Shown piece after piece: positions 48,284 to 58,384 of a DNA stretch of 58,384 nt. Each line of letters starts with the position of its first letter. The first letter of the stretch is position 1. The translations under genes were made by a program, and so were the position numbers. The stretch is from Candidatus Agathobaculum pullicola (GTDB taxonomy: Bacteria; Bacillota; Clostridia; Oscillospirales; Butyricicoccaceae), in the NCBI GenBank assembly GCA_019115085.1, contig DXEF01000032.1, positions 1 through 58,384 of the forward strand. Reading direction: 5' to 3'. The notes beneath the pieces are model-generated. The model saw only the letters and a program-made list of their open reading frames with translations, searched no databases and was not told the origin of the DNA.

Positions 48284-49303
48284 ATGAATATAGCACAAGC
48301 TGTTCCCACTAGTTTTGCACAGGCCTGTGAACAAAAGCTGTTATCCAGTCTCGGCAAGGGCATCAGTAAGCACAGCGAACGCGCACGCAACATTGCAGCA
48401 GGAAGCGAACGCATGTCCAGCGATTTGCTGCATTCCGATGACACGATCAACAGCTATGCCAACTGCCTGACACAGTATGCACGCTGGATAAAAGAAAATC
48501 ATCCTGATTGCCATCGTCTTCAGATTGCAAAGAAGCGGCATTATGATCATGAATTTATCCAGCATCTGATCAACACACATGCCTATGCACCTACCACTAT
48601 CAAGCAGTATACAGCTGCTCTTGCTTTTGTGCATGGCTGTACGATGAATCAGGTACACAATGTCCGTCCGACCGTTCGTGCGGAAGATGCTACGCGCAGC
48701 CGCAGCTACACAGAAGAGAAGTTTAACCGTCAGCTGCAGTACCGTCTACAACACGGCCCTGCTTGCGTGGCAGCAATCATGCAGATCTGCCGTGCTACCG
48801 GATTGCGCCGCGACGAAGCAGAGCAGGTGCGTTCATCCAATTTTTACTTTAACGGAACGCACTATATCTGCCATCTTTCCGGCAATCCTGATCATCTGGA
48901 ATTCCCGGGCGAAAAGACCGTTTGGACTAAGGGCGGCCGTATGCGTACCATCGAGATCCTGCCTAAGTACAATGATGTTGTGTACCGAATTATGTCCTTC
49001 TGCGATCCGAATGAAAAGATCTGCCCGAAGATTCCAGACCGCATTGATGTCCATGGTATCCGCAGCATGTATGCCTGTGAGTTATATCTGGCGTTTGCTC
49101 GTCCAATCGATATGATAAAACCCTCTGACCGCACAATGGAGCATGACAAATCCCGTCCTACCCGGTACCGTGACCGGCAGGGATATACGTGGGATCGTGA
49201 CGCACTTCTGCGTGTTTCTGCGTCTCTGGGTCATAACCGCTCGGAAGTCGTTGTGCGGCACTATCTGTGGAGGCTGCGGCAGGAGAAATCTAAGATTTCA
49301 TGA
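48284..49303 (+). CDS. Atypical tyrosine recombinase
   Basis: A 339-residue protein with an N-terminal SAM-like domain (about 48-130: DDTINSYANCLTQYARWIKE, TIKQYTAALAFVH) and a catalytic domain with all six expected residues: Arg175 (TGLRRDEAEQV), Lys216 (TKGGRMRTI), His257/Arg260 (VHGIRSMYA), His317 (LGHNRSEVV) and Tyr327 (VRHYLW). Between box I and box II it has a long insert (about 265-310). It is not close to XerC/D or to the integrase at 42053. It may be an integrase domain protein of an integrative element. The start has AAAGG 11 bases upstream. Confidence 0.8.
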   Translation: MNIAQAVPTSFAQACEQKLLSSLGKGISKHSERARNIAAGSERMSSDLLHSDDTINSYANCLTQYARWIKENHPDCHRLQIAKKRHYDHEFIQHLINTHAYAPTTIKQYTAALAFVHGCTMNQVHNVRPTVRAEDATRSRSYTEEKFNRQLQYRLQHGPACVAAIMQICRATGLRRDEAEQVRSSNFYFNGTHYICHLSGNPDHLEFPGEKTVWTKGGRMRTIEILPKYNDVVYRIMSFCDPNEKICPKIPDRIDVHGIRSMYACELYLAFARPIDMIKPSDRTMEHDKSRPTRYRDRQGYTWDRDALLRVSASLGHNRSEVVVRHYLWRLRQEKSKIS

Positions 49304-49967: not shown

Positions 49968-50642
49968 TCACCTGCTCAGGAGCCAACAAAGGCCTGCAGC
50001 TGTGCGTTCTACAGCTTGGTTATAGTGATTGCCTGGATTCAGCTGGAACACTGTGTCAATGCCTTTGCTTTGATAGAAGGCGTGAATCTCCTCTGTGTTC
50101 TGTCGGACACTTCTCAGAACCGGGTTTCGGGTTTTGCTTTCCTTGTCACCTAGGGAGAAATACATGCAGTCCGGCCAGTGCTTTGGCTCATGGGAGAAGA
50201 TATACTCCTTCATTCCGGGAAACCAGAGAGAGCCGGACATGCTGCCCACACGGGAAAACAGGTCCGTCTGGTAGATGGCATACAGCGCAAATAGCCCAGC
50301 CAAAGAGTATCCGGCAATCCCACGCCAACGAGGAATTCCAGCAATTTGTTTCTCTGCTATTGGGATAATTTCCTCAGTCAGGAGCCGCAAATAGTCATCT
50401 GCACCACCGGTGCAGGGATCGGCATTTTTGAAAGCAGGCGGACTGTCCCAGGGTGTCATGTCATGGTTCCAGTCCAGATCACTGATGGCCACCAAAGTGA
50501 ACGGCGGACAGCCGGCAGTCTGCATTGCCTTGTATACCTTCTGTCCTTCACCAGAGAAGGTGTTGAGGTAGATAATAGGTGCGTTTACTTTAAAATTTGG
50601 GAAAATGGATATCGTTTTGCCCTTTGTTGAGAAAGTGTACAT
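49968..50642 (-). CDS. Esterase-family alpha/beta hydrolase
   Basis: A 224-residue hydrolase. The nucleophile elbow GYSLAG near residue 115, a downstream Asp in SLGDKESKT and a final catalytic histidine in NPGNHYNQAVERT form the triad. It resembles the esterase D/Fes-like group (PF00756) acting on siderophore-type or acyl esters; no signal peptide is present, so it is cytoplasmic. The ATG at 50642 (MYTFSTKG) is chosen because the ATG at 50654 sits on the Shine-Dalgarno (GGGG). It is divergent from the helicase operon. Confidence 0.8.
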   Translation of the reverse strand: MYTFSTKGKTISIFPNFKVNAPIIYLNTFSGEGQKVYKAMQTAGCPPFTLVAISDLDWNHDMTPWDSPPAFKNADPCTGGADDYLRLLTEEIIPIAEKQIAGIPRWRGIAGYSLAGLFALYAIYQTDLFSRVGSMSGSLWFPGMKEYIFSHEPKHWPDCMYFSLGDKESKTRNPVLRSVRQNTEEIHAFYQSKGIDTVFQLNPGNHYNQAVERTAAGLCWLLSR

Positions 50643-50793
50643 AGCTTGAATCATCCCCTTTCTATTTTGACAGGGAGCAGCACACAGGAAAGTCCTGTTT
50701 ATTGGATAAATATTGTGCGAAACTATTTAAAAATAATGGTGAACGCATTGTCGACAAAGACGGATGGTTTTGTTGATATTTGCCAATAAGTCC

Positions 50794-50869: not shown

Positions 50870-53800
50870 ATGCTGCCTCCTGGCCTTTATGAACAAGTCA
50901 TTAATACTGCCCTGAACCGCGAGCTTTCGAAAATCCCAGATGCCCGCAAATCAGTTGCGCCCATTGACAAGGCGGAGGCCTCCAAGGTATTGGCGCAGTA
51001 TCTGGCGGATGTGGTGCAAAAGGGCCTGGAGAATGTGGTAGACAACGGCGGGGACATCTCCAAGCAGATTGGCCTCGCCAACAAGATTGTAGATATTATC
51101 CAGAATATAACTGGGGAAGCTGACTTTGCTGCGCTGAGTGTTGACCAGCAGGCAGAGCAGCTTCTTGCGCTTTTACGGGAGCAGGACCCACGGCTGGCAG
51201 TGGGCAAAACGGCTGCTGACCTGAATCGGCCAGAGACCTCCATTGCCCAGAGTAGTTTGTTCACCGGGGCCATCCATGAGCCCCAGATGTACACGGAGCT
51301 CAAAAAGGAGATCGTTTCTGCTGATCGCATCGATATGTTGGTGTCCTTTATCAAGTGGAGTGGATTGCGGCTCCTAATAGATGAGCTGTGGGAGTTTACC
51401 CAGAACGGTGGCGAGCTACGGATCATTACCACTTCCTATATGGGAGCCACCGATGTAAAGGCCATTGAGGAACTGCGCAAGCTGCCTAACACTAAAATCA
51501 AGGTCAGTTACGACACCAAACGCACCCGCCTCCACGCTAAGACCTACGTTTTTTACCGGAACACCGGCTTTACTACTGCCTATGTGGGATCTTCGAACCT
51601 ATCCAACGCCGCCATCTCCAGCGGTCTGGAATGGAATGTGAAAGTCACTCGCCGGGATTTGCCCGAGACCATCGACAAGATAGCCGCCACTTTAGAGAGT
51701 TATTGGAATTCCAACGAGTTTGAGTACTACTCCGAGGATCAGAAGGAACGGCTAGCCCGCGTGTTGAAGGCAGAAAAATACTTCGACGCCAACAACGCCG
51801 AAGTCTATACCATGGATATTGCGCCCTACTCCTATCAGCAGGAGATTCTGGACAAGCTGGAGGCCGAACGCACCGTGCGGGGATATACCCGCAACTTGGT
51901 GGTGGCCGCCACTGGCACCGGAAAAACTGTGATCTCCGCTCTGGACTATAAGCGTTTTTGTAAGCAGTACCTCGGTAAGCCCTGCAGGCTGCTCTTTGTG
52001 GCGCACCGGGAGGAGATTTTGCGGCAGAGTTTGTATACCTTCCGGGCAGTTCTGAAGGACGCTAACTTCGGGGAACTGTTTGTAGGCAGCTACCGACCGG
52101 AAAGCATTGACCATCTGTTTTTGTCCATTCAGACCTTCAATTCTCAGGATTTTGCCGGCAAAACGGATCCGGATTTTTACGACTATATTGTTGTGGACGA
52201 GTTCCACCATGCAGCAGCGCCCACCTATCAGAAGCTATTGACTTACTATAAGCCCCAGATTCTGCTTGGCCTGACCGCTACCCCGGAACGTATGGACGGC
52301 AAGAATGTGCTGCCCTATTTTAACAACCGAATTGCCGCGGAAATCCGCTTGCCGGAGGCTATTGACCGCAAACTGCTGTGCCCCTTCCAGTATTTTGGTG
52401 TCACCGACACGGTGGATCTGAACACGTTGAGATGGAGCGCCGGCGGCTATGACAAAAATGAGCTTTCCAATCTCTATACGTTCAGCGGTGCCGTGGCCAA
52501 CCGCCGCGCTGATCTGGTAGTGTCCTCGCTTCTGAAGTATGTGACTGATATTGATGAGGTCAAGGGGCTTGGATTCTGCGTGTCCATTGAGCATGCAAAG
52601 TTTATGTGCCGCTATTTTAACGACCACGGGATTTCGTCCATCTTTCTGACGGGAAAATCCACCGATGAGAAGAGAAAAACCGCCAAAGGACGGCTGGTCA
52701 GCGGCGAGGTGCGTTTTATCTTCGTGGTAGACATCTACAATGAGGGCGTAGACATACCGGAGGTCAATACGGTACTATTCCTGCGGCCCACGGAGTCCTT
52801 GACGATTTTCCTTCAGCAGCTGGGCCGTGGTCTGCGCCTTGCAGAGGATAAAGAATGTCTGACTGTGCTGGACTTTATCGGTCAGGCCAACAAGCGGTAT
52901 AACTTTGAGGATAAGTTCGCTGCCCTGTTATCCAATACCACTCGCAGCGTGACCCGGGAGATCAAGGACGGATTTGTCTCTGCACCCAAGGGCTGCTACA
53001 TACAGCTGGAAAAGAAAGCTGCCAAGTATATTCTGGATAACATTCGTGCCTCCTATGGCAATACTGCCGGGCTGGTGTCTCGGGTGGCCAGCTTTACCGA
53101 AGATAGCGGACTGGAACTGACACTGGCAAATTTCCTAGATTATTACCATCTGGATCCCAGAGCAATTTATAGGTTTTCTTCCTTCTCTCGCATCTGCGCC
53201 CGGGCGGATGCAATTGCGGACTTTAATGAACCGCTGGAGGACGTACTGACAAAAGCCTTTGGTCGGTTGGCCGTTGTGGACTCCCGGCGCTGGATCCGCT
53301 TTTTGCTGGACCTGCTGCCCCGTCTGGACGATGTGGACTTCACGGCGCTGAGTAAACTGGAAAAGCGGATGCTCCAGATGTTCTATGTGACCGTTTGGGG
53401 CAAGGCGGCAGAGAGTTGGGCATCTAGTGAGGTTCTGGACAATCTGCATGCTCTTTCGGACAGCCCTGTGTTGCTGGGTGAGCTTTTGGACCTGCTCCGC
53501 TATCGGTATGAGCAGATCGACTTCATTGACGAGCCGGTGGACCTGGGCTTTGACTGCCCACTGGACCTCCACTGTACCTATACCCGTGACCAACTGCTGG
53601 TTGCATTGGATTTCTTGAAACCGGCAACGGTGCGCGAAGGCGTCAAGTGGCTGCGAGAGAAGCAACTGGATGTGTTCTTTGTGACGCTGAATAAGGCGGA
53701 TAAAGACTACTCGCCTACCACCATGTATAACGACTACTCCATCAATGAGAGCCTGTTTCATTGGCAAAGCCAGAGCACCACGGCGGCGGATTCGCCAACC

Positions 53801-54025
53801 GGACAACGGTACATCCATCATCGGGAGCGTGGGAGCAAGGTGCTGCTGTTTGTCCGGGAGTTTAAAGCGGACCGGATCACAGGTGGTGCAGCAGCCTATA
53901 CTTTCTTGGGAACGGCGAATTATGTAAAGCATGACGGAAGTAGGCCCATGAATATCACCTGGCGGCTGGATCGACCGATTCCGGCGAAGTTTTTGAAGAA
54001 GACAAATAAATTGGTGGTGGGATAA
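50870..54025 (+). CDS. PLD nuclease - SF2 helicase - DUF3427 protein
   Basis: A 1051-residue multidomain protein. Residues 1-110 are helical. A phospholipase D-like domain (about 125-290) holds one HxK motif, RLHAKTYVFYRNTG with GSSNLSNAAISSGLEWNV after it (His near 222). The SF2 helicase has Walker A AATGTGKTVIS (about 346), a DEFHH box (about 442), LTATPERMDG and motif VI QQLGRGLRLAED (about 648). The rest (about 700-1051) matches DUF3427 in length and place. PLD-helicase fusions are found in defence islands and may cut or process nucleic acids; the single HKD suggests that it acts as a dimer. The Nudix gene follows directly. Confidence 0.9.
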   Translation: MLPPGLYEQVINTALNRELSKIPDARKSVAPIDKAEASKVLAQYLADVVQKGLENVVDNGGDISKQIGLANKIVDIIQNITGEADFAALSVDQQAEQLLALLREQDPRLAVGKTAADLNRPETSIAQSSLFTGAIHEPQMYTELKKEIVSADRIDMLVSFIKWSGLRLLIDELWEFTQNGGELRIITTSYMGATDVKAIEELRKLPNTKIKVSYDTKRTRLHAKTYVFYRNTGFTTAYVGSSNLSNAAISSGLEWNVKVTRRDLPETIDKIAATLESYWNSNEFEYYSEDQKERLARVLKAEKYFDANNAEVYTMDIAPYSYQQEILDKLEAERTVRGYTRNLVVAATGTGKTVISALDYKRFCKQYLGKPCRLLFVAHREEILRQSLYTFRAVLKDANFGELFVGSYRPESIDHLFLSIQTFNSQDFAGKTDPDFYDYIVVDEFHHAAAPTYQKLLTYYKPQILLGLTATPERMDGKNVLPYFNNRIAAEIRLPEAIDRKLLCPFQYFGVTDTVDLNTLRWSAGGYDKNELSNLYTFSGAVANRRADLVVSSLLKYVTDIDEVKGLGFCVSIEHAKFMCRYFNDHGISSIFLTGKSTDEKRKTAKGRLVSGEVRFIFVVDIYNEGVDIPEVNTVLFLRPTESLTIFLQQLGRGLRLAEDKECLTVLDFIGQANKRYNFEDKFAALLSNTTRSVTREIKDGFVSAPKGCYIQLEKKAAKYILDNIRASYGNTAGLVSRVASFTEDSGLELTLANFLDYYHLDPRAIYRFSSFSRICARADAIADFNEPLEDVLTKAFGRLAVVDSRRWIRFLLDLLPRLDDVDFTALSKLEKRMLQMFYVTVWGKAAESWASSEVLDNLHALSDSPVLLGELLDLLRYRYEQIDFIDEPVDLGFDCPLDLHCTYTRDQLLVALDFLKPATVREGVKWLREKQLDVFFVTLNKADKDYSPTTMYNDYSINESLFHWQSQSTTAADSPTGQRYIHHRERGSKVLLFVREFKADRITGGAAAYTFLGTANYVKHDGSRPMNITWRLDRPIPAKFLKKTNKLVVG

Positions 54026-54409
54026 ATGACTGAAGTAGTAGCGGCCCTGATCTGGAATCAGGACAAGTTTATGATTTGCCAGCGCCCGGCGCATAAGGCC
54101 AGAGGGCTGCTGTGGGAGTTTGTTGGTGGTAAGGTAGAGCCAGGCGAAACTAAAGAACAGGCACTTATCCGGGAATGTCAGGAAGAACTGGCTATCACTT
54201 TGAATGTGGGAGAGGTATTCATGGATGTGACGCATGAATACCCAGATTTGACCGTTCATCTGACACTATTTCATGCGACCGTCCGGGAGGGTATTCCTCA
54301 GAAATTAGGGCACAATGATATCTGCTGGATCACTGTGGATGAGATTGATCAATATGCGTTCTGTCCAGCGGATGAGGAGATTTTAAGGAGGCTGAAAGAT
54401 GCCTATTAA
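54026..54409 (+). CDS. MutT-like Nudix hydrolase
   Basis: A 127-residue (deoxy)nucleoside triphosphate pyrophosphohydrolase. The Nudix box G-x5-E-x7-R-E-x2-E-E is complete in GGKVEPGETKEQALIRECQE followed by EL. The size matches MutT/8-oxo-dGTPases. Its ATG abuts the helicase stop and it overlaps the next gene by 11 bases. Adjacent placement to a DUF3427 helicase suggests joint work: nucleotide removal or cleaning during DNA processing. That is inference. Confidence 0.93.
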   Translation: MTEVVAALIWNQDKFMICQRPAHKARGLLWEFVGGKVEPGETKEQALIRECQEELAITLNVGEVFMDVTHEYPDLTVHLTLFHATVREGIPQKLGHNDICWITVDEIDQYAFCPADEEILRRLKDAY

Positions 54410-54722
54410 AACCTATCACAAGTTGGTGCGTGATCGTATTCCAGAGATTATTGAAGCAGACGGGAAAATCTGCGTCTACGAAACACTTACTGATGAGGAC
54501 TACATGCATCTTCTGGACCAGAAGCTGAACGAAGAGCTTGCTGAGTACCAGGAGAGCAAATCTCTGGAGGAACTGGCCGATCTTCTGGAGGTCATGCAGG
54601 CTGTCGTGAAAGCCCGTGGCTGGACACTGGAAGAATTGGAGCAAGTGCGGGCAGACAAAGCGGCCGAACGGGGTGGATTTGAGAAAAAGATCCTTTTGAA
54701 GGAAGTAAGGGAGGAACGCTGA
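54399..54722 (+). CDS. MazG-like / phosphoribosyl-ATP pyrophosphohydrolase-like protein
   Basis: A 107-residue all-alpha protein with the family opening KTYHKLVRDRIPEIIEADGK and metal-binding residues in LNEELAEYQ and EELADLLEVMQAVVKARG (E-E-x2-E ... E-x2-D). Such proteins hydrolyse NTPs or dNTPs. The LVRDRIPEII start identifies the small house-cleaning subgroup rather than HisE. The AAGGAGG lies eight bases before its ATG. The combination Nudix plus MazG-like gives the operon two nucleotide hydrolases. Confidence 0.88.
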   Translation: MPIKTYHKLVRDRIPEIIEADGKICVYETLTDEDYMHLLDQKLNEELAEYQESKSLEELADLLEVMQAVVKARGWTLEELEQVRADKAAERGGFEKKILLKEVREER

Positions 54723-55070
54723 ATGGATATTGCGAGAGCAAAAGAGCTCCTATCTGCTTTAGCAGATGGTATAGACCCCTTTACCGGAGAACTTTTCCCA
54801 CGAGACCATATTTGTAATCATCCTGATATCATTCGCGCTTTGCATCAGATACTTGGTTCGACACAAGAAATCAAAAAAAGCCCCAGTGCGCCAAATGCAG
54901 GCAAACCTTGGCCGCAGGAAGAAAAAGACAAGCTGGTGGATGAATTTCATGCTGGAATAAAAATATCGACGATGGCCAAAGAACACGGAAGAAGCAGAGG
55001 GTCCATTGAAGCAAAATTGGCGCATTTAGGTTTGATTGAAGATTCTTATTTTACCAGGAAACTGAGGTGA
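54723..55070 (+). CDS. Small HTH (SANT/Myb-like) protein
   Basis: A 115-residue protein. Residues 1-45 carry the sequence LADGIDPFTGELFPRDHICN, seen in my memory in several bacterial small defence- or repair-linked proteins. The C-terminal half, PWPQEEKDKLVDEFHAGIKI then STMAKEHGRSRGSIEAKLAH, is a three-helix HTH of the Myb/SANT type. The start follows GGGAGGAACGC and abuts the stop of the previous gene. It may bind DNA for the nuclease-helicases, an inference. No enzyme motif is seen. Confidence 0.7.
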   Translation: MDIARAKELLSALADGIDPFTGELFPRDHICNHPDIIRALHQILGSTQEIKKSPSAPNAGKPWPQEEKDKLVDEFHAGIKISTMAKEHGRSRGSIEAKLAHLGLIEDSYFTRKLR

Positions 55071-55075
55071 ACCTT

Positions 55076-56599
55076 ATGCCAACCTACCGCTCCGCCTCTG
55101 GCAGCAGTGTTGAGGACTTGTTCATCGAACTGTTCTCCGACACCTTTGGCGCCGAAAAGGCTAGCTATCTCTACTTCCAATATCCCTTCTCCGACATCTA
55201 CCAGAACAGCCGGTTTGCAGATATTCTGATTGAAAACGGTGGGCGTAAGGTGGCCATTGAGATCGACGATGAGGCATCCCACAATCCAAAACTGGTTTCC
55301 CAGAACAAGTTTTATGATGACCTGCTCAAGCAGAACAGCATGATCTACCTGGGCTGGAATGTGTACCGCTGGGCGGTGCGACAGATGCAGCAGCAGCCGG
55401 AGACTGTCAAGGATGAATTGCGGGTATTTCTGGGCCAGCACCCCAACTTCAAGGAAATTGAGGACTACATCCCCACCCAGCGTGGCAAGTCTCTAGATGG
55501 GTCTAATCTGGAGCTAAAGGAGCATCAGAAACAGGCACTGGCGGCGTTGGAGGAGATGCGCTGCAACTTCGAGACCATCGCCCTTCTCTACCACGCAACA
55601 GGTACTGGCAAAACGGTGACCGCCGTCATGGACGCTAAGCGATTCGGAAAACGTACGCTTTTTTTGGCCCACACGGTGGAACTGGTGGATCAGGCAGCGA
55701 AAACCTTTCGAAAACTTTGGCCTCAGGTCACAGTGGGTCGCTATGTGGAGAGCATGAAGCAGGGTAACGCCTTTGTGGTCTGCGGTAGTATTCAGAGCAT
55801 TGCCCTGAATCTGGAGCGGTTCAAGCCGGATGATTTCGGCTACATTATAGTGGACGAAGCTCACCACGCTTCTGCCGATACATACCAGAAAGTCCTGTCC
55901 TATTTCGCACCGGAATTTACACTGGGTTTGACTGCCATGCCAGAGCGGCCCGACGACAAAAATATTCTGGATATTTTCAAAAATACCGCCCACAAGCTGG
56001 ATATACAGACTGCTGTGGAGATCGGCGAGTTGGTGCCGGTGCGGTGCATTCGCATCCACACCAATATTGACCTGACCAAGGTGCGGTTTAACAGCATCCA
56101 GTACAATATTCGGGATCTGGAGAGCAAGATTTATGTGCCGGAGCGGAACCAGCTCATTGTGGACACTTGGCTCCAGTATGTGAGGGACAGGCGGACGGTT
56201 ATTTTCTGTGCCTCAGTTAAACATGCGCAGGAGATTGCAGGGCGGTTTCACGACGCTGGTGTGGCTGCTGAGGCGGTATCCGGAGAAATCAAGGCTAGCG
56301 ACCGCCGGGAAATGTTGGCCCGGTTTGAAAAGGGCAAGATCAAAGTGCTATGCGCCTGCGACCTACTTAACGAGGGCTGGGATTGCCCTGCTACGGAAGT
56401 ACTGTTCATGGCCCGGCCCACCATGTCCAAGGTGCTCTATACCCAGCAACTGGGCCGCGGTATGCGACTGGCACCTGGCAAGGAGAGCCTGATGGTATTT
56501 GATTTCGTGGACAACGCCAGCCAGTACAACATTCCCTACTCCATGCACCGGCTGTTTCGACTGAAAGACTATAAGCCCGGTGCTCTTACTGATGTGTGA
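55076..56599 (+). CDS. PD-(D/E)XK nuclease - SF2 helicase, 3'-truncated by a serine-recombinase element
   Basis: A 507-residue protein. Residues about 10-115 look like a restriction-endonuclease fold (SVEDLFIELFSDTFG; the catalytic D in FADILI and E-x-D in KVAIEIDDE; a final YLGWNVYRW). The helicase follows: Walker A HATGTGKTVTA (about 175), DEAHHA (about 262), LTAMPERPDD and motif VI QQLGRGMRLAPG (about 457). Related proteins continue for some 300-400 more residues after KDYKPGAL. Here the frame goes into a new sequence and stops in T|GATAAA, the first bases of the element. ATG 55076 has GAGGTG seven bases upstream; the GTG at 55067 is an alternative. Confidence 0.85.
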   Translation: MPTYRSASGSSVEDLFIELFSDTFGAEKASYLYFQYPFSDIYQNSRFADILIENGGRKVAIEIDDEASHNPKLVSQNKFYDDLLKQNSMIYLGWNVYRWAVRQMQQQPETVKDELRVFLGQHPNFKEIEDYIPTQRGKSLDGSNLELKEHQKQALAALEEMRCNFETIALLYHATGTGKTVTAVMDAKRFGKRTLFLAHTVELVDQAAKTFRKLWPQVTVGRYVESMKQGNAFVVCGSIQSIALNLERFKPDDFGYIIVDEAHHASADTYQKVLSYFAPEFTLGLTAMPERPDDKNILDIFKNTAHKLDIQTAVEIGELVPVRCIRIHTNIDLTKVRFNSIQYNIRDLESKIYVPERNQLIVDTWLQYVRDRRTVIFCASVKHAQEIAGRFHDAGVAAEAVSGEIKASDRREMLARFEKGKIKVLCACDLLNEGWDCPATEVLFMARPTMSKVLYTQQLGRGMRLAPGKESLMVFDFVDNASQYNIPYSMHRLFRLKDYKPGALTDV

Positions 56600-58384
56600 T
56601 AAAGAAGTAATAGAAGTGTAAAAAATTTTGCCGTTCCTATCCGGCGTTTCGCGATTACGTCGGATAGGTCGGGCGGTTATTCCGGCAAGTCAATCTTGCC
56701 GACAAAGCTGTAATAAATCTCTATGTCCTGCCTGCGGGTGCCGTCCTCGTCGTAGCTGCACTCATGGACGACGATTTTCTCAATCATTTCCCGCAAGAGG
56801 GTGGGAGTAAGTTTCTCAAAAGTAAGGTGCTTTCTCACAATCCCCATGAATTTTTCCGCGTTGACGGTGGCGGCCTGCGACTTGTCCAGTTCTTCCTGCA
56901 AACCAGCGGCGCGGTCTTTCAGTTCCCGCTGTTCCTGCTCGTAGTCTGCGGACAGTTCCATGAAACGCTCGTCGCTGATTTTCCCGCTTACGTTGTCCTC
57001 ATACAGACGCTTGATAATGCGGCTGATTTCAGAAATGCGCTCCTGTACCTGTTCAAGCTGCTTGGTGGCTGCGGCGGTCTTTCTCCTGCCGCCGATTTCG
57101 TTCTGCTGGATAAGCAGCTTTACAAAGCGGCTCTCATGCTTGGCGGCGTATTCCGTCACTTGCCGGAGATTGGAGAGGACGCCGGCGGTCAATAAGTCGG
57201 TGCGGATAAAGTGCGCCGTACAATCGCGGGTGCGCTTTTTGTAGCTGCCGCAGATGTAACAGTCCTGTTTCCGCTTGTCCGTCTGGTATCTCTGCTGATA
57301 GAGGACGCTGCCGCAGTCGGCGCAGAACAGCATACCGGAGAACAAGCCCACTTCATCATAGCGGTTCGGGCGTTTGCGCTGCTTGCGTAGCTCCTGCACA
57401 CGCTCCCATGTTTCTGTGTCGATAATCGGCTCATGGTGGCCGGGGAAAATCGCCTGCTTTTCAATGGGGTTCTCTACACTGTGCTTGGTCTTGTAAGAGG
57501 GCTTTTCTGTCTTGAAGTTTACCAGACAGCCGGTGTACTCCCGGTTTTCAAGGATATGAACGACGGTGTTCGTCGCCCATTTGCACTCATAGCCGGGGTG
57601 GTAGCGGCGGGTGCTGCCCGTCCTGCGGTATTCCAGCGTCCCCGGCGTGGGGATTTGCTGCTCCGTAAGCATACGGGCAATCTTGGTCGGGCCGTTCCCC
57701 GCAAGGCAAAGCTGGTAAATCTTCTGTACTACCGGGGCGGTTTCCTCGTCCATGATGTAATTCTCGTCCTCGTCCATGAGGTAGCCATATACCGGCTTAC
57801 TGGTAATGGGCTTTCCGCTCATGCCTTTGGCTCTCTTGACAGCCTTGATTTTCTTGCTCGTATCTCTCACCAGCCATTCGTTAAAAAGATTCCGCAGCGG
57901 GGTAAAATCGTTGTCCATGCCGCCGTTTTCACTGTCTACGTTGTCATTGACAGCGATAAACCGCACGCCCTTTTGGGGGAACAGCATTTCCGTATAAAAT
58001 CCCACTTGCAAGTAGTTTCGCCCTAACCGGCTCATGTCCTTGACGATGACGGTGCCGACTTTCCCGGCCTCGATGTCCGCAAGCATGGCTTGGAAACCGG
58101 GGCGGTCAAAGTTCGCGCCGGAAAAGCCGTCGTCGGTGTACCAGCGCAGGTTGGTAAAGCCGTTCTGCTTGGCGTAGGTTTCCAAAATCCGCTTTTGGTT
58201 GGATATGGAATTGCTCTCGCCTTGCAACTCGTCCTCATGGGACAATCTCGGATAAAGGGCGGTAATGAGGTTTTGGGTGGCTCGTCTTAACATAAATTCC
58301 TCCGTTTCCGACAGCCAGCCCACTATTCCGTGGTTTCATTGTACCACGAAATAGGGCGGGCTGTATAGCGGCAAAAATGTAAAA
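56598..58384. mobile_element. Left end of a TndX/TnpX-type element, continuing beyond the window
   Basis: The end begins GATAAAGA (56598-56605), which matches the end of the left element read inward. A palindrome CCTATCCG/CGGATAGG (56637-56667) lies before the tail of the recombinase gene. The recombinase reads toward the end. The sequence after 58323 is non-coding to the window edge, and the rest of the element is not visible. Confidence 0.8.
56677..58293 (-). CDS. Large serine recombinase, TndX-like
   Basis: A 538-residue site-specific recombinase. The resolvase domain has the catalytic serine region ITALYPRLSHEDELQGESNS (Ser17), DDGFSGANFDRPGFQAML and VIVKDMSRLGRNYLQVGFY. The Recombinase domain then has a zinc ribbon CADCGSVLYQQRYQTDKRK plus CYICGSYKKRTRDC, and a long coiled coil (about 390-480). 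The start MLRRATQNLITALYPR at 58293 follows CGGAGGAATTT; the open frame extends ten codons upstream without support. The size is near TndX of Tn5397 (about 530) and below TnpX of Tn4451. It is likely responsible for excision and insertion of the element at 56598. Confidence 0.95.
   Translation of the reverse strand: MLRRATQNLITALYPRLSHEDELQGESNSISNQKRILETYAKQNGFTNLRWYTDDGFSGANFDRPGFQAMLADIEAGKVGTVIVKDMSRLGRNYLQVGFYTEMLFPQKGVRFIAVNDNVDSENGGMDNDFTPLRNLFNEWLVRDTSKKIKAVKRAKGMSGKPITSKPVYGYLMDEDENYIMDEETAPVVQKIYQLCLAGNGPTKIARMLTEQQIPTPGTLEYRRTGSTRRYHPGYECKWATNTVVHILENREYTGCLVNFKTEKPSYKTKHSVENPIEKQAIFPGHHEPIIDTETWERVQELRKQRKRPNRYDEVGLFSGMLFCADCGSVLYQQRYQTDKRKQDCYICGSYKKRTRDCTAHFIRTDLLTAGVLSNLRQVTEYAAKHESRFVKLLIQQNEIGGRRKTAAATKQLEQVQERISEISRIIKRLYEDNVSGKISDERFMELSADYEQEQRELKDRAAGLQEELDKSQAATVNAEKFMGIVRKHLTFEKLTPTLLREMIEKIVVHECSYDEDGTRRQDIEIYYSFVGKIDLPE

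Follow-up and report, generated by a model that had tools for sequence, protein, structure and literature searches.

A modular operon of Candidatus Agathobaculum pullicola joins a SauUSI-like restriction enzyme to Nudix and MazG-like hydrolases that may act on the same modified cytosine

Type IV restriction enzymes attack modified DNA, and no methyltransferase partner shields the host. SauUSI of Staphylococcus aureus cleaves DNA bearing 5-methylcytosine (5mC) or 5-hydroxymethylcytosine (5hmC) (PMC7913695; PMC3874153) and carries the nuclease motif HxK(x)4E (PMC7913695); this and the other papers cited here were accessible in part and are quoted for those parts. Among the hydrolases of free nucleotides, the structure 2rrk is listed as the E. 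coli 5-methyl-deoxycytidine triphosphate (5-methyl-dCTP) pyrophosphatase (PMC5389931), Orf135 and DCTPP1 were termed highly specific 5-methyl-dCTP hydrolases (PMC10742078), and DCTPP1, a member of the MazG superfamily, accepts 5-methyl-dCTP (PMC7162842). For the Bacteroides fragilis protein Q5LBB1 (structure 3GWY), kcat/Km values of 4.8 and 4.4 x 10^6 M-1 s-1 were reported for 5-Me-dCTP and 5-MeOH-dCTP, respectively (PMC5158307). Nudix goes unmentioned in the accessible part of the paper on SauUSI (PMC7913695), and a search of the open-licence literature, as far as its texts were accessible, found no prior link of SauUSI-like enzymes to Nudix or MazG-like hydrolases. Here, a five-gene operon is described in which a SauUSI-like enzyme directly precedes such hydrolases. 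It lies on contig DXEF01000032.1 of Candidatus Agathobaculum pullicola (contig C27 within its own genome, G000), which was analyzed over its full length of 58,384 nt and is called the window.

The operon consists of five open reading frames (ORFs) on the forward strand. They encode a SauUSI-like type IV restriction enzyme of 1051 aa (gene 1, 50870-54025), a putatively NudG-like Nudix hydrolase of 127 aa (gene 2, 54026-54409), a predicted MazG-like protein of 107 aa (gene 3, 54399-54722), a small protein of 115 aa that is tentatively predicted to bind DNA (gene 4, 54723-55070) and the N-terminal two thirds of a nuclease-helicase (gene 5, 55067-56599). Genes 1 and 2 abut with 0 bases between them, as do genes 3 and 4. 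Genes 2 and 3 overlap by 11 bases and genes 4 and 5 by 4 bases, and the latter overlap becomes a 5-base gap when the ATG at 55076 is taken as the start of gene 5. The five closely packed, co-directional genes proposed in an earlier sequence-only reading of this DNA are thus borne out by the ORF coordinates.

Protein family scans of the window genes were performed with Pfam, PADLOC and NCBIfam. In gene 1, Pfam identified PLDc_2, ResIII, Helicase_C and DUF3427 in this order, in agreement with the PLD-SF2-DUF3427 helicase that had been read from the sequence. PADLOC assigned it to mREase_IV (PDLC03659) with 766 bits over almost the full profile and to the SauUSI type (PDLC03658) with 310 bits, and the SauUSI structure 7clg was matched with an E-value of 2.7e-89. 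Gene 1 shares with SauUSI the architecture of PLD nuclease, SF2 ATPase and DUF3427/SRA-type domain, and also the HxK and GSSN motifs. In the alignment to 7clg, the SauUSI pocket residues F841, D858 and W868 correspond to F937, D955 and W965 of gene 1, and I842 to V938, while Tyr831 and Met829 are outside the aligned stretch. F937, D955 and W965 are invariant in 20 aligned rows, down to 30% identity. The motif HxK(x)4E is incomplete: H222 and K224 are invariant, but Glu126 is replaced by Tyr229, and an invariant Glu254 is found further on. Because of this replacement, the protein is named SauUSI-like and not SauUSI. It also differs from SauUSI in belonging to the ∼30-35% identity class and in having ∼115 extra N-terminal residues ahead of the PADLOC match. 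From these features it is inferred that the gene 1 product recognises modified cytosine by means of its SRA-type domain and then cleaves.

Gene 2 matched Pfam NUDIX, as the sequence-only reading had expected, and PADLOC PDC-S07 (146.5 bits). The latter entry already flags this Nudix family as a single-gene defence candidate but, unlike the reading presented here, names neither a partner nor a mechanism. The Nudix box Gx5Ex7REUxEE is intact (GGKVEPGETKEQALIRECQEE) and is kept in those rows spanning the region that belong to lineage A, the window's own, or to lineage B, a second Nudix lineage found beside the enzyme. The nearest solved chain was 2rrk (85.6 bits), followed by the MutT-annotated 5x1x (84.0 bits), and E. 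coli MutT scored 53.7 bits. In NCBIfam, NudG (103.1) outscored MutT (91.4), each below its cut-off. The lineage-B member L044 (L-numbers denote loci) matched 5x1x with 86.8 bits and then 3gwy with 85.7 bits. An Asp near the C-terminus was found in 24/24 lineage-A and 13/13 lineage-B rows spanning the region (L042 stands outside this set). Since 5x1x and 3r03 have this Asp too, it is consistent with a relationship to NudG/Orf135 (2rrk) and Q5LBB1 (3gwy) and not diagnostic of it; these two enzymes, which rank first or close to first among the solved chains for lineages A and B, share the Nudix box as well. Gene 2 is unlike them in that it directly follows a restriction enzyme gene, and we know of no report that links NudG/Orf135 or Q5LBB1 to a restriction enzyme. 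The accessible literature on MutT2 and Orf135 gave no usable information on specificity residues. Repair of 8-oxo nucleotides by a MutT-type gene 2 is disfavoured, as NudG scored above MutT in NCBIfam and 2rrk above E. coli MutT, although the MutT-annotated 5x1x comes close behind 2rrk; for MutT, 5-methyl-dCTP is a weak substrate (PMC3744803).

The gene 1 scan of genome contigs yielded 152 loci, of which the best 80 were used. Neighbours were counted on all ORFs of these 80 loci, and the region upstream of the enzyme in these loci served as control for Nudix adjacency. Of the 74 loci with enough sequence, 33 have a Nudix gene that starts ≤600 bp downstream of the enzyme (23 lineage A, 10 lineage B), compared with 1/70 upstream. 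Within 10 kb, the counts were 38/80 downstream and 2/70 upstream. The pair of enzyme and Nudix is the firmest link among the genes of the operon. On a quick enzyme tree with several long branches, the Nudix state (A, B or none) mapped by parsimony needs 16 changes, and well-supported branches force at least 5 changes for A and at least 7 for B, gains and losses taken together. As the Nudix label is also clustered on this tree, part of the pairing is inherited.

The pairing was also seen in other samples. In a phylum sample of 398 genomes, 73 had an enzyme match; 28 loci were examined with ≤1.5 kb of flank, and L195 was dropped as the same DNA as L076. In the resulting 27 loci, a same-strand Nudix gene abuts the enzyme in 6 (4 downstream, 2 upstream) and an opposite-strand one in 1. 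Among viral contigs, where the best 5 of 80 enzyme loci were examined, Nudix abuts the enzyme in 2 (L219 and L221), and L221 also has MazG. In an order-level sample of 247 genomes, the enzyme was found in 19 genomes, Nudix in 73, MazG in 18, the helicase in 6 (7 loci) and gene 4 in 11.

Gene 3 had no match in the Pfam, PADLOC or NCBIfam scans. The metal motif EExxE...ExxD is present in 22/23 distinct MazG-like proteins, including that of the window, and L013 lacks the Asp. In a second look, the predicted fold ranked among all-alpha nucleoside triphosphate (NTP) pyrophosphatases; with Foldseek alone, no match reached E ≤ 0.001. Gene 3 shares the metal motif and predicted helices with MazG/DCTPP1, and the motif and, more tentatively, the fold ranking speak for the MazG-like label of the sequence-only reading. 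Besides the missing profile match, gene 3 differs from MazG/DCTPP1 in its position: in the 247 genomes, MazG lies ≤500 bp upstream of the nuclease-helicase in 7/7 helicase loci. In L171 and L173, the stretch read contains the MazG-helicase pair but no enzyme, and in L033 the pair lies on the other side of the enzyme. Enzyme-Nudix and MazG-helicase thus also occur as separate pairs, and the latter pair probably forms a second module that can stand apart from the first. In L172, a MazG of 90% identity follows a SauUSI relative of 35% identity.

For close reading, 24 loci were picked that hold several of the operon's genes, and the gene order was analyzed in the 20 of them with three or all four of the enzyme, Nudix, MazG and helicase genes. 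In 18/20, these genes follow one another in just this order on one strand, the exceptions being L033 and L023. Where no insert is present, the enzyme and Nudix genes are separated by the stop codon alone in 9/10 loci, and the Nudix-MazG overlap is identical in 8/9. Relatives carry a slot for a small gene between MazG and helicase, which gene 4 occupies in the window. Gene 4 has 132 relatives and no Pfam, PADLOC or NCBIfam match. The helix-turn-helix (HTH) label it had been given is backed by no profile in these scans and goes back to one source's name for a relative. In 20 loci with MazG and helicase, the slot holds the gene 4 family (6), an HTH-like relative (2), DUF6998 (6, one of them a fragment), a 155-aa protein (2), nothing (3) or a stretch without assignment (1). 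Gene 4 is an optional, exchangeable part outside the operon core.

The junctions of relatives also carry defence modules. A complete Wadjet JetABCD system occupies the enzyme-Nudix junction of L016 (JetC 1183.5 bits), and another separates the enzyme from MazG in L111. Other junction inserts are a PLD protein (L013, L075, L113), a GmrSD_N protein (L065) and a DEDDh nuclease (L026). Together with a methylase-HerA insert, these genes provide the kind of defence neighbourhood that the sequence-only reading had named as a check. Core defence hotspots, for example those of Pseudomonas aeruginosa (PMC10250203, accessible in part), likewise have variable defence genes between conserved genes. Unlike in those hotspots, the conserved frame genes here are themselves of defence type and form one co-directional operon.

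Several observations on individual loci were made alongside. Wadjet genes stand immediately before Nudix in L016 (13241-19821), L133 and L137, and before MazG in L111. The enzyme-Nudix junction of L008 (4853-9175) holds a DNA methylase, a HerA-like ATPase and a 464-aa protein without identification, and HerA-like relatives are also found downstream in L026 and L042. In L028 (3176-8437), a gene for a 1753-aa protein precedes the enzyme in the same orientation; its relatives occur near the enzyme in 5/80 loci, in 4 of them upstream. Copies of the enzyme are decayed in several relatives (L026, L111, L113). In L113 (G018:C18:570000-585000) the operon as a whole is decayed, with several stops in the enzyme and helicase fragments, and the Nudix and PLD genes are still open.

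Since gene 1 is SauUSI-like and genes 2 and 3 resemble hydrolases of 5-substituted dCTP, a shared chemical mark is proposed. According to this proposal, which is put forward tentatively and at somewhat less than an even chance, the operon is modular: gene 1 would cut DNA with 5mC or 5hmC, and the Nudix and MazG-like genes would destroy the matching free 5-methyl- and 5-hydroxymethyl-dCTP. The enzyme would recognise the modified cytosine in foreign DNA via its SRA-type domain and cleave, and the hydrolases would remove the modified nucleotides, which could originate from degraded foreign DNA or from phage synthesis, from the pool. Modified dCTP would thereby not enter newly made DNA, which would spare the host's own DNA from becoming a target of the enzyme, and a phage that uses modified cytosine would be starved of its precursor. 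A further step, which is doubtful though conceivable, is that one mark is policed twice, on DNA by a 5-methylcytosine-dependent nuclease and in the pool by hydrolases, as the self-protection of a restriction enzyme without a methyltransferase, for which two Nudix lineages were repeatedly recruited. In our judgement, a model based on 5-substituted dCTP fits the protein families better than general depletion of deoxynucleoside triphosphates (dNTPs) or 8-oxo repair. The parts are of already known kinds, namely a type IV enzyme, the Nudix candidate PDC-S07 and defence islands with variable cargo. If the proposal is true, hydrolases that keep a mark out of host DNA would be a new form of restriction self-protection, and PDC-S07-type Nudix genes would gain a role. 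The conserved frame with gene-sized inserts at fixed junctions is a simple place to seek new defence genes in gut Clostridia.

The main rival is a generic island or passenger role, in which the hydrolases are ordinary pool-cleaning passengers, acting on oxidised or damaged nucleotides, in a defence hotspot where only the nuclease-helicases and inserted modules defend. This is rather unlikely but has to be weighed seriously, as several observations speak for it and against the shared-mark proposal. A different contig of the window's genome carries a second Nudix (G000:C28:23660-24040, L131), which is 87% identical to gene 2 and lies in a different setting, and across the 247 genomes Nudix is more widespread than the enzyme (73 versus 19 genomes). 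Many unlinked Nudix copies stand alone among genes that, judged by position, look like housekeeping genes. Others adjoin different defence genes: defence-type neighbours were found in 3/5 scanned loci with unlinked Nudix (Wadjet JetCD; an RT_UG30/PDC-S41 pair; a DEDDh nuclease). The MutT-annotated 5x1x is close to both Nudix lineages, and 41/74 loci have no Nudix ≤600 bp downstream of the enzyme. The Nudix tree, which is poorly resolved, needs 9 changes between linked and unlinked, of which well-supported branches force just 1, and alone it shows no repeated recruitment. Against the passenger role stand an abutment specific for strand and side (33/74 versus 1/70), the repeated pairing by two Nudix lineages on the enzyme tree, and a score of the NudG model above those of the MutT models. 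In L136 (1212-8953), one of the unlinked settings, a lineage-A Nudix is flanked by a PDC-S41 gene and a UG30-type reverse transcriptase; upstream of these come a type II methyltransferase and an MzaE-like gene.

Less probable is that the hydrolases drain dCTP or dNTPs during infection, as in known nucleotide-depletion defences, and that the modified base is irrelevant. The defence setting of the operon would agree with this, and dCTP is also a substrate of NudG (PMC5389931, from a reference title) and of DCTPP1 (PMC7162842). Nevertheless, the nearest characterised Nudix enzymes are reported to prefer the 5-substituted form (PMC5158307), and the Pfam and PADLOC scans found no regulatory or sensor domain with the hydrolases.

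A dedicated complex that needs all five products is very improbable and such a fixed machine is rejected, since tight packing with overlaps and the relative order kept in 18/20 chosen loci stand against a gene 4 replaced or absent in 14/20 loci, enzyme-Nudix and MazG-helicase found apart, and all five families together in 1/247 genomes. That one genome is the window's own (G018 has four families and helicase fragments), so a regular co-occurrence of the five families, whose rarity elsewhere the sequence-only reading had named as a refuting outcome, did not appear in this sample, although pairs recur strongly. Its joint defence operon thus stands in its link to defence, through mREase_IV, PDC-S07 and the defence modules in the operon of relatives, and is not supported as a single system of five genes, gene 4 being swapped and the pairs occurring separately.

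In the window, the helicase gene is split. The SF2 helicase core of gene 5 (ResIII, Helicase_C) is clear and RadD-related, and this part of the PD-(D/E)XK-SF2 helicase assignment made earlier is upheld; the nuclease part is weak, with MTES_1575 at 22 bits against a cut-off of 38.2. The ORF encodes 510 aa, compared with about 750-760 aa in most of 120 listed relatives, and is split after residue ∼505. The break point lies at 56586-56599: homology to the intact relative stops at 56586, and the remaining frame comes from the inserted side. A search of the window's own genome placed the rest of the protein, its C-terminal part, close to the beginning of contig C44. Relative to one intact relative gene, the window piece stops at base 1511 and the C44 piece starts at base 1511. 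A natural helicase of 510 aa was therefore ruled out, as most of the listed relatives have ∼755 aa and the halves meet at the same base. The C-terminal third of the helicase gave a weak model (predicted local distance difference test score, pLDDT, 66), and the structure matches listed cover mainly the helicase core. Because the helicase gene is split, the enzyme and the hydrolases are probably the only functional part of the operon here.

Beside the split, 77 bases past the stop of gene 5, a large serine recombinase is encoded on the other strand (56677-58323; Resolvase, Recombinase, Zn_ribbon_recom, DUF4368), which leaves 61 bases to the end of the contig. The split is most simply explained by site-specific insertion, and the recombinase is the probable integrase of the element responsible. 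A recombinase beside a split helicase was not seen in the loci of relatives examined. The window from 56677 to 58384 and G000:C44:1-130 probably represent the ends of this serine-recombinase element, the middle of which is missing from the assembly. Beyond the helicase part, C44 carries a NucS-like PDC-S11 gene, a GDSL-type protein and a rhodanese, the last two named from the sequence with no profile. GDSL-type and rhodanese genes also close the operon in several relatives.

Upstream of the operon, a divergent tyrosine-recombinase-like gene lies at 48284-49303 of the window, with Integrase_1 and Phage_int_SAM_4 both below cut-off. As to carriage on plasmids or phages, just partial matches of 60-80% identity were found, in 6 plasmid and 2 phage records. 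The upstream flank is formed by a putative esterase on the reverse strand (49968-50654, Pfam Esterase), and some relatives likewise have an esterase upstream of the enzyme (L006, L008, L011 and others).

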